Shown here in pieces: positions 15,458 through 18,966 of a stretch of 64,000 nt of DNA (position 1 is its first letter; each line of letters begins with the position of its first letter). A program made the position numbers and the translations under genes. The notes under the pieces were generated by a model. That model ran no database searches, was not told the DNA's origin, and worked only from the letters and a program-made list of their open reading frames with translations. The DNA comes from an uncultured Eubacteriales bacterium (GTDB lineage: Bacteria > Bacillota > Clostridia > Christensenellales > Aristaeellaceae): positions 1-64,000 of the forward strand of contig CADBCY010000008.1 of NCBI GenBank assembly GCA_902793325.1. The letters are read 5' to 3'.

Positions 15458-16873
15458 GTGCAGCGACTGAACCGCGGCATGATGCGCCGCTATGACATAC
15501 CCGAGCGTCGGCCCGAACGGGTGAACGCGGTGCAGTTCGGCATGGATGAAACGATGCTGGGCATCGTGGACCGCCGGATCGACGACGTGGCGCCGGGAAT
15601 CGGCATCGCCTGCGTGGCGGCGGGAGAGGCGGCCGCGGCCAAGGCCCTGCGGGCGCAGGACGGCATGTACACGCTGCTCGTCCGCGGCTACGAGGGGGAG
15701 AGCCCCGTGCGCCGCGAGCAGGTGGTGCAGCGTATCGCGGAGGTCATCGACCCCGAGGAGGACTTCGGGGCGCTCACGTCCCTGGCGCTGCGGCCGGAGC
15801 TCGCGCTGGGCCTGGCGAACACCGAGGGCCCGGCGGCGGAGCTGGCGCTGACGCTGGCGGCGCGGCTGCTGGCCGCGCGGTTCCGGGAAGGGCTTCCCGG
15901 GCTCGACTTCCTGTGCGCGGGCGATACGGCGGACTGCGCGCGGCGCGCGGCGGCCTTCATCGGGCGCGTCGGCGCGGGCTGGGGCCTGGGCGCGGACTTC
16001 GCGGCGTGGCTCGGGGGCGAGAACCGCTTCTACCCCATGCTGGCGGACAGCCTGGCCTTCCGCGCCGCGCCGGAGGAGGCGGCGAAGGTCTGCGCCGACA
16101 TGAACTACGCCGACGACCTGCTGCACATCGCCGAACCCTTCGCGCGGCTCACCGTCGGCGCGCCGCAGGCGCTCGCGGCGCGGTGGGGGCTGGAGGGGCC
16201 GGGCATCGCCTTCGCGGAGGATCTCGACCCCGCCCTCGCGCTGAAGCACCGGGTGTTCGACGGCGTGCTGTGCGCGCTGGCGGCGCCGGGCTGGCTGCTG
16301 GGGTGTGATACCCTCGCGGACTGCATGAAGCACGAGCGGCTGCGGGCGTTCGTCGGCAACGCCGTGGTCCGGGAGCTGCTGCCCGCCCTGCCCGTGTCCC
16401 GGGAGGCGGCCGCGGCGGCGGTGATCGAGACCTTCGGGCGGCTGGAAAATCCGCTGAACGACAACCGCGTGCTGCCCTCGGCGCACCATTTGCTGCGCAG
16501 GTTCGAGGTCGGCGCGCTGCCGGCGATCCGCGCCTGGGCGGAGGAGCACTTCGACGCGCCGGAGTCCCTGTCCTTCGCGCTGGCGGCGACGATCATGCTG
16601 TACGCCGGCGCGCGGCGGGCCGGGGACGCCGGGCGGTACGAGGTGCAGCGGGGCAAGCTGACGGAGGCGCTCCCCGACGATCCCGCGCGGCTGGCCGTGT
16701 TCGGGGCGCTGTCCCACGACATGCCGCCGGAGGCGCTGGCCTACGCGGCGCTGGCGGACCGCGAGCTGTGGCGGGGGCTGGACCTGCGGGAGATCGACGG
16801 CCTGGAGTCGCGCGTGACGCTGGCCCTCGCCGCCCTGCAGCGCGACCCTTCCTGGCTGCCGGAGGGGGAGTAG
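15458..16873 (+). CDS. mannitol dehydrogenase/tagaturonate reductase-like protein with altered active site
   Basis: This 471-residue protein matches the layout of the UxaB/mannitol dehydrogenase family. It has a VNAVQFGMDETMLG start (normally QFGxGNFLRAF), a QDGMYTLLVRG block, LANTEGPAAE in place of SNTTEAGI, and a C-terminal domain from LKHRVFDGV through LENPLNDNRVLPSAHHLLRRF. Family enzymes reduce tagaturonate, fructuronate or fructose with NAD(P)H, using a catalytic Lys-x4-Asn-x2-His. Here Lys263 is kept, but the Asn position is Asp268 and the His position is Leu271. The N-terminal Gly-x-Gly dinucleotide loop is also lost. It may be a pseudoenzyme or have a new activity. The GTG start at 15458 has GGGGAGGGG upstream. 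It is divergent from the PfkB kinase. Confidence 0.65.
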   Translation: MQRLNRGMMRRYDIPERRPERVNAVQFGMDETMLGIVDRRIDDVAPGIGIACVAAGEAAAAKALRAQDGMYTLLVRGYEGESPVRREQVVQRIAEVIDPEEDFGALTSLALRPELALGLANTEGPAAELALTLAARLLAARFREGLPGLDFLCAGDTADCARRAAAFIGRVGAGWGLGADFAAWLGGENRFYPMLADSLAFRAAPEEAAKVCADMNYADDLLHIAEPFARLTVGAPQALAARWGLEGPGIAFAEDLDPALALKHRVFDGVLCALAAPGWLLGCDTLADCMKHERLRAFVGNAVVRELLPALPVSREAAAAAVIETFGRLENPLNDNRVLPSAHHLLRRFEVGALPAIRAWAEEHFDAPESLSFALAATIMLYAGARRAGDAGRYEVQRGKLTEALPDDPARLAVFGALSHDMPPEALAYAALADRELWRGLDLREIDGLESRVTLALAALQRDPSWLPEGE

Positions 16874-16904
16874 CGGCCGCCGCCCGGGTGGACAGCGCCC
16901 CGCA

Positions 16905-17268
16905 ACCATGTTATAATGATTAGGAAAGCCGAAGGCTTTCCGGGTCGGCGCGCAAGGGAGCGAAGCGAGTTGCGCAGCGCGCCGACAATCATGTTATAAT
17001 GATTAGGCAACGGCCCGTAGGGGCGTTGGCCGGGTCGGCGGGCCGCGGAGCGAGCACGGCGACAATCAAGGTATAATGATTAGGAAAGCCGAAGGCTTTC
17101 CGGGTCGGCGCGCAAGGGAGCGAAGCGAGTTGCGCAGCGCGTCGACAATCATGTTATAATGATTAGGCAACGGCCCGCAGGGCGGTTGGCTGGGTCGCCG
17201 GGCCGCGGAGCGAGCACGGCGACAATCAAGGTATAATAAGGAAACCCGCAGGTTTTCCGGGTCGCCCC
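16905..17268 (+). repeat. tandem array of five promoter-like boxes alternating with hairpins (160-bp compound repeat x2)
   Basis: This fills most of the 446-bp gap before the nucleoside kinase. Five TATAAT boxes lie at 16912, 16995, 17072, 17155 and 17232, spaced exactly 83, 77, 83 and 77 bp: two unit types (A and B) repeated as A-B-A-B plus a partial fifth. Each box sits in an AT-rich near-palindrome (AATCATGTTATAATGATTAGG, with GACAATCA before it) that stands out in GC-rich DNA. After each box comes a short hairpin (A: GGAAAGCC-GAA-GGCTTTCC; B: CAACGGCCC paired imperfectly around GTA/GCA) and GGGTCGSCG. A second, longer hairpin in the full units ends at CGAC (A: TCGGCGCGC with GCGCGCCGA). 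Differences between copies fall largely in hairpin arms, some wobble-preserving. All boxes point at the kinase gene. It resembles a REP/BIME-like mosaic or a tandem promoter array. Confidence 0.85.
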
Positions 17269-17319
17269 GGTCACGCGCCGATTCTTTCCCGGAACCGCCG
17301 ACTCCCAAGGAGGGATACC

Positions 17320-18966
17320 ATGTATCTGAAGCTGAACGGCATCGAGCTGAGCTGTGCGAAGGGCACGCGCTGGGGAGAGCTGCTGGAGCGGCTGCCCGAC
17401 CGCGGCGCGGGCGCGCTGGGCATTTCCGTGCGCGGCCGCACCGATTCGCTGAACGACCCGGCGGAGGAGTACGCCTTTGCCCGCACCCTGACCTACGCCG
17501 ACGAGGAGGGCCGCCGCATCTACGAGCGCTCCCTGCAGTTCGTGTTCCTGGCGGCGGTGCACCGCCTGTACCCCGGCGAGCGCGTGCGCATCCGGCACTC
17601 GTTCGTGCAGGGGCTGTACATCGACCTGCCCAACCTGCCGGTGACGGATACCGTGGTGGCCGCCCTGCGCCGGGAGATGCGCGCGCTGGTGGACGAGGAT
17701 CTGCCCATCCAGAAGTTCCGCGTGTCCAAGGAGGACGCCAAGGGCTACTTCAAGCGCACGGGCCAGTTGGACCGGCTGCGCATCCTGGGCTACCGCAAAT
17801 TCGACCACTTCACCATGTACCGCATCGACGGCGTGGACGACTACTTCTACGGCGAGATGGCCGTGCGCACCGGGCAGGTCGCCGTGTTCGACCTGCGGGC
17901 CTACGGCGAGGGCGTGCTGCTGCAGATGCCGGACGCAGCCGACCCCGCGCGCCCCGCGGCGTTCGTGGATTCGCCGATGCTGCTGCGCACCTATTCCGAG
18001 GCCGCGGAGTGGCACACCATCCTCAACTGCGAGAACGTGTCCGACCTGAACGACATGATCGGCCGGCGCAGCCTGCGCGAGTTCATCCGCGTGAACGAGG
18101 CGCTGCAGGAGCGGCGCATCCAGCAGATCGCCGACGGCTTCGTCCGCAGCGGCGCGCGGCTGCTGCTCATCGCGGGGCCGTCGTCCTCGGGCAAGACCAC
18201 CTTCGCCCACCGCATGGCCATCGCGCTGCGGGTGCAGGGGCTGCGGCCCGTGAAGATCAGCCTGGACGATTACTACCTGAACCGCGATGACATCCCGCTG
18301 GAGCCGGACGGCACGCGCGACTTCGAGAAGATCGAAACGCTCGACGTGCCGCTGCTGTGCGAGCAGCTCGCGGCGCTGCTGGCGGGCGAGGAGGTCGGGC
18401 TGCCCCGCTTCAACTTCAACACCGGCGTGCGGGAGCCGGAGCGCCGGCCCTTCCGGGTGGAGGCGGGCCAGCCCATCATCATCGAGGGCATCCACGGCCT
18501 GAACGACCGGCTGACCGCCTCCGTGCCGCGCAAGCAGAAGTTCCGGGTGTACATCAGCCCGCTCACCATGCTGAACCTGGACGACCACAACCGCATCCGC
18601 ACCACCGACGCCCGGCTGCTGCGGCGCATCGTGCGCGACTACCAGTTCCGCGGCACCTCCCCCGAGGCCACCATGGATATGTGGCCCAAGGTGCGCCGGG
18701 GCGAGGAGAACTACATCTTCCCCTTCCAGGAGAAGGCGGACATGATGTTCAACTCCTCGCTGACCTACGAGCTGACGGTGATGAAGAAGTACGCCTACCC
18801 GGCGCTGCTGCAGATCACCCCCGAGAGCCCGCACTACACGCTGGCCCGCCGGCTGGTCAAGTTCCTGAACTACATCCAGCCCGCCGACGTGGAGGACGAG
18901 ATCCCCGTCAACTCCATACTGCGCGAATTCATCGGCGGCTGTTGCTTCTACAAGGACGAGGACTGA
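17320..18966 (+). CDS. nucleoside (uridine) kinase fused to a TGS/ThrRS-editing-like N-terminus
   Basis: This 548-residue cytosolic protein has three parts. Residues 1-60 are TGS-like (KLNGIELSCAKGTRWGELL). Residues about 60-220 resemble the second additional domain of threonyl/alanyl-tRNA synthetases (VRIRHSFVQGLYIDLPNLP). Residues about 280-500 form a uridine kinase/phosphoribulokinase P-loop domain with Walker A GPSSSGKTTF (286-295), KISLDDYYLNRDD and IIIEGIHGLND. This fusion is widespread in Clostridia and is annotated as a nucleoside kinase. The role of the synthetase-like half is unknown. A pyrimidine-salvage role (uridine or cytidine to UMP/CMP) is inferred from the kinase domain. AAGGAGGG precedes the ATG. 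The promoter-like array at 16905-17268 lies directly upstream. Confidence 0.88.
   Translation: MYLKLNGIELSCAKGTRWGELLERLPDRGAGALGISVRGRTDSLNDPAEEYAFARTLTYADEEGRRIYERSLQFVFLAAVHRLYPGERVRIRHSFVQGLYIDLPNLPVTDTVVAALRREMRALVDEDLPIQKFRVSKEDAKGYFKRTGQLDRLRILGYRKFDHFTMYRIDGVDDYFYGEMAVRTGQVAVFDLRAYGEGVLLQMPDAADPARPAAFVDSPMLLRTYSEAAEWHTILNCENVSDLNDMIGRRSLREFIRVNEALQERRIQQIADGFVRSGARLLLIAGPSSSGKTTFAHRMAIALRVQGLRPVKISLDDYYLNRDDIPLEPDGTRDFEKIETLDVPLLCEQLAALLAGEEVGLPRFNFNTGVREPERRPFRVEAGQPIIIEGIHGLNDRLTASVPRKQKFRVYISPLTMLNLDDHNRIRTTDARLLRRIVRDYQFRGTSPEATMDMWPKVRRGEENYIFPFQEKADMMFNSSLTYELTVMKKYAYPALLQITPESPHYTLARRLVKFLNYIQPADVEDEIPVNSILREFIGGCCFYKDED

Follow-up and report, generated by a model that had tools for sequence, protein, structure and literature searches.

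A tandem repeat array at a kinase promoter: probable local amplification of a MITE-like repeat with a main subfamily directed to the -10 box

Several classes of small repeats and mobile elements are associated with bacterial promoters. MITEs with promoters have been reviewed (PMC10969869), and members such as the Correia elements (CREE) of Neisseria are able to provide or change promoters and to contribute processed RNA structure (PMC10969869, PMC2649163). Like the repeat unit described here, Correia elements are short, non-coding, dispersed and often located upstream of genes (PMC10969869, PMC2649163). The ends of a Correia element can themselves give rise to a promoter, whereas the present unit adjoins a host -10 box and duplicates it. 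It is further set apart from Correia elements by description, being a 60–84 bp covarying three-way junction often found in head-to-tail arrays. TnGBS, ISLre2 and some ISKra4 (p-MULT) elements target sigma-A promoters, their site lying 15–17 bp upstream of the -35 (PMC3942029); the unit instead lies at the -10, measures 60–84 bp and has no transposase gene. REP/BIME sequences with RAYT share with the unit the form of dispersed folded repeats in untranslated regions, but the four RAYT-like loci examined in this genus carry hairpins of their own and the genome studied has no Y1 gene. IS200/IS605 derivatives (PATEs) have asymmetric folded ends and are orientation- and site-specific, as is the unit. 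They differ from it in that the unit shows an 8-bp target duplication, which is not expected of IS200/IS605 elements, and has hairpins unlike those of the IS200-like copies read in the genus. Among titles and abstract openings in the open literature retrieved with chosen terms, no element inserting at a -10 box was described.

The window analysed here is a stretch of 64,000 nucleotides from an uncultured Eubacteriales bacterium. Before a kinase gene it contains an array of four full units and a partial fifth, within which a compound 160-bp repeat has been locally duplicated into two copies that are 94% identical (16903–17062 and 17063–17222). Five TATAAT boxes start at 16912, 16995, 17072, 17155 and 17232, all on the + strand and directed towards the ORF at 17320. 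The first-pass annotation of this DNA had described five boxes in two 160-bp repeats (83+77) plus a partial fifth unit, every -10 facing the kinase gene, and this layout is real, with a box spacing of 83/77/83/77 bp. The units are best cut as TGATT...AATCA (Table 1). Two of the four downstream boxes read AGGTATAAT and lack a TG. The gene product matches the uridine kinase/phosphoribulokinase family (PF00485), and the protein has a full-length or near-full-length match in 26 of the 27 other genus genomes.

Table 1. Promoter, repeat units, junctions and downstream gene at the array in the window
Feature	Position	Strand	Evidence
Native sigma-A-type kinase promoter: -35 TGGACA, 17-bp spacer, extended -10 TGTTATAAT	16889..16917	+	Sole promoter in scan of 16800–17400, 11/12 matches with TG
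Unit 1, 75 bp, three-way junction TGATT-P2-GG-P3-AATCA	16917..16991	+	R2 64.0 bits; fold
Junction TGTTATAA, identical to left-flank 8-mer (target-duplication-like)	16992..16999	+	
Unit 2, 69 bp	17000..17068	+	R2 78.7 bits
Junction AGGTATAA	17069..17076	+	
Unit 3, 75 bp, nearly the same as unit 1	17077..17151	+	R2 61.3 bits; D1 repeat 94%
Junction TGTTATAA	17152..17159	+	
Unit 4, 69 bp, nearly the same as unit 2	17160..17228	+	R2 77.4 bits
Right junction AGGTATAAT	17229..17237	+	
Partial fifth unit: only P2 hairpin GGAAACCCGCAGGTTTTCC and GGGTCG, degenerate	17238..17264	+	Repeat family D3, 81%
Downstream gene, uridine kinase/phosphoribulokinase-family protein, 548 aa	17320..18966	+	PF00485 E 2.3e-18

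The array probably arose by local amplification of one member of a new, non-autonomous and MITE-like family, the main subfamily of which targets the promoter -10 and forms arrays that grow in place. The computations on which this reading draws show dispersal, covariation of the fold, empty sites, -10 targeting, a duplication at two loci, a single orientation and changes in array length. A non-autonomous mobile repeat was among the first-pass suggestions and proved largely right, given the dispersed copies, empty sites and target duplication. The MITE features found are non-coding dispersed units of 60–84 bp, empty sites in relatives and a target duplication at two pairs of filled and empty sites in genomes G016 and G010. 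The ends TGATT/AATCA match over 5 bp only, which is short for classical terminal repeats, and they also form P1 of the fold.

BLAST returned 51 matches in the own genome, grouped by us into at least 26 places; a search of this genome and its relatives had been proposed as a check in the first-pass annotation. All 25 genus genomes of the first sample (own included) match, whereas 16 genomes from other families gave no match. The covariance model R1, derived from 43 units of the own genome, detects 64 units in the own genome and 44, 16, 39, 20 and 54 in G002, G013, G016, G018 and G023, respectively. Most of these genomes appear to be MAGs, where tandem arrays may have been collapsed. Over 396 genomes of the order, a second covariance model, R2, with strict filters, matches six: four genus members, G182 from another genus of the family, and G163 from another family. 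In a first sample of 151 genomes, matches were found in the own genome and G163, together with a weak one in G038 that is read as chance. Units of G182 have GTTT/AAAC as P1, and five of the six arrays read there begin 0–2 nt after TATAAT. The G163 copy is a single unit (L161:2006-2072) with P1 GAATT/AATTC, and its flanks, CTCCCAAA and TTGGGGAG, may pair together. Phage and plasmid collections gave no match to the 160-bp query, and R2 detects no unit in the 27 viral contigs that gave one pattern match and 26 fifteen-mer matches.

Association with promoters was assessed in a set of arrays drawn by similarity to the window subfamily, which is over-represented in it, together with chosen places in G002, G016, G018 and G023 instead of all matches; arrays from related genomes are not independent. 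Sixty-six arrays have a left -10, of which 56 have a clean left flank, the remaining ten having unit-like sequence just upstream. A TG precedes the -10 in 48 of these 56 flanks, and 26 of them have a -35 with at least 4/6 matches at 16–18 bp (mean 6.6 and maximum 12 in 200 shuffles), mostly 17–18 bp upstream. By the same criterion, none of the 41 internal -10 boxes has a -35. The internal boxes follow TGG in 22 of the 41 cases, TGT in seven and TGC in one, and so many of them are extended -10s. At the left flanks, the N of TGNTATAA is G in 36/48 TG-type cases versus 17/58 other TGNTATAAT sites (p 5e-6), a background that leaves out the kinase, transketolase and empty-site loci. A first background, dominated by kinase and transketolase promoters, had given 20/97; the G preference persists, weaker, once these promoters are removed. 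The target therefore looks sequence-specific. In promoter-type arrays the unit follows TATAA directly, and 5 nt separate the -10 from P2 in 47 of the 55 measurable arrays. All 66 promoter-type arrays are in forward orientation and none in reverse, the single regex match for the reverse orientation being a terminator-type copy.

Empty sites were found at several promoters. In all 26 relatives that have the kinase gene, the element is missing from the 200 bp preceding the match; 20 of them keep the native promoter TTGC..-17/18-TGNTATAAT at 35–47 bp before the matched protein start; the other six have no promoter by this pattern. The transketolase promoter, which carries two units in the own genome, was read in seven relatives from a longer list of matches and is empty in all seven, although an array stands at the transketolase gene of G019. 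Three filled/empty pairs of closely related species were compared. At a gene with an apparently YicC-like product, G016 reads GTGGTATAA-unit-TGGTATAATGAACGTGG where G010 reads GTGGTATAATGACCGTGG; G002 and G018, with TGTGGTATAAT, have no unit there either. Another G016/G010 pair shows the same pattern, with insertion after TGGTATAA and duplication of that 8-mer. In a third pair, from G002 and G018, the copy on the right, TGATATGATTAT, is similar to the native TGATATAATTAT, but on the left TGG stands where the empty relative has TGA. The 8-mer duplication is thus well seen at two loci and imperfect at a third. Across the 56 clean arrays, 8-mers on the left and right resemble each other more than permuted ones do (P 0.004), with identity in 14 and TATAAT kept on the right in 34.

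Once present, the units appear to multiply locally. Among 111 arrays, counted by a regex that loses degenerate units, 74 have one unit, 24 two, nine three and four four. Own-genome units have a mean likeness of 0.87 within one array versus 0.76 between arrays, and for 22 of 38 the closest relative lies in the same array. The comparison of unit number proposed in the first-pass annotation reveals a difference among sister species, as one promoter holds three units in G016 and one in G010; in G013 it holds none. In G019, two loci (L214 and L224) have tandem units joined by the 4-mer AACA, without internal TATAAT. Array growth therefore does not need the -10.

The unit, of about 60–84 bp, is a three-way junction in which P1 pairs TGATT with AATCA, P2 is a hairpin at the predicted transcription start and P3 is formed by GTCG...CGAC; its ends read TGATTAGG...CGACAATCA. 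The hairpins reported for the window hold for the first 75-nt unit, which folds at -38.8 kcal/mol (z -4.87), but less so for the 69-nt unit at 17000–17068, where z is just -1.56 and 17 of 200 shuffles fold equally well. The proposal of selection on RNA or DNA structure finds support across the family, since stem differences covary. In a plain MAFFT alignment of the 43 own-genome units, 94.3% of cells pair and both-side changes occur in 10 of 27 pairs, giving 65 double-change cells, a number reached by none of 500 shuffles. Among 137 distinct units, 23 of 26 pairs show both-side changes, including all five of P1, again beyond all 500 shuffles; as this alignment was fitted to the covariance model, the plain one is the safer test. 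These counts are the outcome of the covariation analysis suggested in the first-pass annotation. A G.A mismatch inside P3 is kept in 112/137 units. On the + strand, G.U cells outnumber A.C cells by 44 to 20 with three poorly pairing columns excluded (55 to 22 with them), an excess that the covariance-model search itself favours.

How the insertion would work can be outlined for the main subfamily. It would enter beside an extended -10, preferably between TGGTATAA and T, in a single orientation, leaving the 8-mer on both sides. An enzyme acting in trans presumably recognises the folded or double-stranded ends together with the 8-mer TGGTATAA, and a single-stranded unit could fold into the three-way junction. 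As the native -35 and -10 would remain upstream, the gene could still be transcribed, and the native promoter would be expected to keep firing. The transcription start is predicted from the usual distance between -10 and start. It would fall on the first bases of P2, so that the mRNA would gain a structured 5' leader, and an effect on expression may be anticipated. The downstream -10 copies would be relics of target duplication and array growth, acting at most as weak extended -10 sites without a -35. The 5' strand of P1 precedes the predicted start, and transcripts from the first promoter would not include it; this argues for P1 acting at the DNA level, with the caveat that the copies may simply be young. 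If this outline is correct, a repeat of this kind would find safe harbours in promoters, entering the -10 itself while a full -35/-10 and another -10 remain. In a group of gut bacteria it would also rewrite the 5' leaders of numerous genes that are unrelated to each other, changing length in place. Its target choice is testable, since the target is an 8-mer with a fixed reading direction and an element of this size can be synthesised.

Other explanations account for parts of these data. Covariation of this strength exceeds what a simple MITE requires, and the G.U excess is also predicted by an RNA role. These points, with the kept G.A mismatch, the predicted start on the first P2 bases at a near-constant gap and the G019 arrays that repeat the fold without a -10, would fit a cis-regulatory RNA leader (a riboswitch, protein-binding leader or 5' stability element) whose fold is selected as RNA and whose tandem copies raise the effect. 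Such a leader nevertheless seems unlikely. The 61 downstream ORFs called, by a simple caller some of whose picks look out of frame, include only six homologous groups, which hold 13 ORFs, some from near-identical genomes, and no common pathway is apparent. The kinase and transketolase promoters lack the unit in the relatives read, the G019 transketolase array excepted; copies of other subfamilies follow terminators or have an antisense position in 5' regions; and the 5' strand of P1 precedes the predicted start. Scans of the window region and seven loci gave no Rfam match to the unit at gathering score, the weak matches to ZEB2_AS1_3 (E 0.25, on the minus strand over part of the array) and to MIR4371 (E 0.051) being far below it, and weak T-box leader matches lie elsewhere in two of these loci. 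The pyrimidine-responsive attenuator of the first-pass annotation is not supported, with no terminator-like site in 16800–17400, no -35 at the 41 internal boxes and mostly unrelated downstream genes. A tandem promoter device, in which every -10 would initiate transcription and the gene would be tuned by the number of copies, would agree with the TG before many internal boxes and with array lengths that differ between sister species. It is rendered improbable by the complete lack of a -35 at internal boxes, the single promoter in the window region, the two window boxes without a TG and the arrays that have no internal TATAAT. The earlier suggestion of tandem promoters is thus not supported, and its companion, that the repeat carries promoters, is better restated: the -10 copies are present, but the array region has one full promoter, which the repeat enters and whose -10 it duplicates.

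Movement as an IS200/IS605-type single-strand element (PATE-like) by a Y1 transposase would explain the asymmetric ends, single orientation and folded arms. Y1 genes occur in 16 of 28 genus genomes, and IS200-like copies in G023 and G017 stand behind a terminator-like hairpin and TTGTNCA, as do most terminator-type units. A broken IS200-like copy even lies inside a promoter array, between TGATT and AGG (L250:1340-2030 and L194), apparently as one insertion common to G002 and G018. This origin is nonetheless very improbable. No Y1_Tnp gene was found in the own genome, the IS200 hairpins are unlike P2 and P3, the 8-bp duplication is seen at two loci, and an R2 match lies beside only one of 20 Y1 loci examined, namely the broken copy in G002, which has jumped into the array. 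Four RAYT-like loci have other hairpins, e.g. GGGGACGGTTC...GAACCGTCCCC, and with the two preceding Y1 counts they speak against the REP/BIME membership raised in the first-pass annotation. These Y1 genes (L231, L233, L237 and L239, with frames of ~260–300 aa), which we take to be RAYT-like from their length and hairpins, represent another repeat system in the genus. An IS200-type model of the ends, with TGATT as the cleavage site, was dropped, as right flanks continue the native sequence after TATAAT. Chance tandem duplication of one kinase promoter would account for the locally duplicated 160-bp repeat, but it is refuted by the 26 places in the own genome and the matches in all 25 genus genomes. 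For the MITE-like family we infer a mobilising enzyme that acts in trans; the own genome offers no Y1 candidate, and two patterns for split (autonomous) copies found none there.

Further subfamilies differ in their location. G016 and G023 have many 61-bp copies, several of them identical in G016, with the 12-bp left arm TTGGCTTGTNCA or a variant. On visual inspection the majority directly follow a hairpin that resembles an intrinsic terminator, in most cases with a T run, while no such hairpin is seen at L143 and L187; the terminator-type copies include L144–L152 in G016 and L185, L188 and L190 in G023. The site of one such copy is empty in G010, and no duplication is seen at this sole terminator-type filled/empty pair read. 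Another is common to G016 and G010 and absent in four other genomes. Other units are antisense before start codons, and in at least eight places in G002 and G018 a unit with P1 AGGTT/AACCG lies inside a longer conserved non-coding repeat starting at about TTCCCGGCACAAGTGAGCCCACGG. The whole family is therefore not tied to promoters, while the window subfamily is.

It is conceivable, though doubtful, that the family moved as a folded single strand into DNA held open by RNA polymerase, the -10 subfamily entering the promoter bubble and the second subfamily the region behind intrinsic terminators, with the three-way junction and its kept G.A mismatch recognised by the enzyme. Single-strand entry of this kind would make it a transcription-complex-guided mobile element.

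Two minor observations concern the neighbourhood of these other copies. Downstream of antisense-type units, T-box leader matches below gathering score occur at L160:905-1164 and L171:906-1241. The longer repeat of G002 and G018, found at L172–L174, L176, L179, L180, L199 and L200, may be a larger structured RNA or a mobile repeat.
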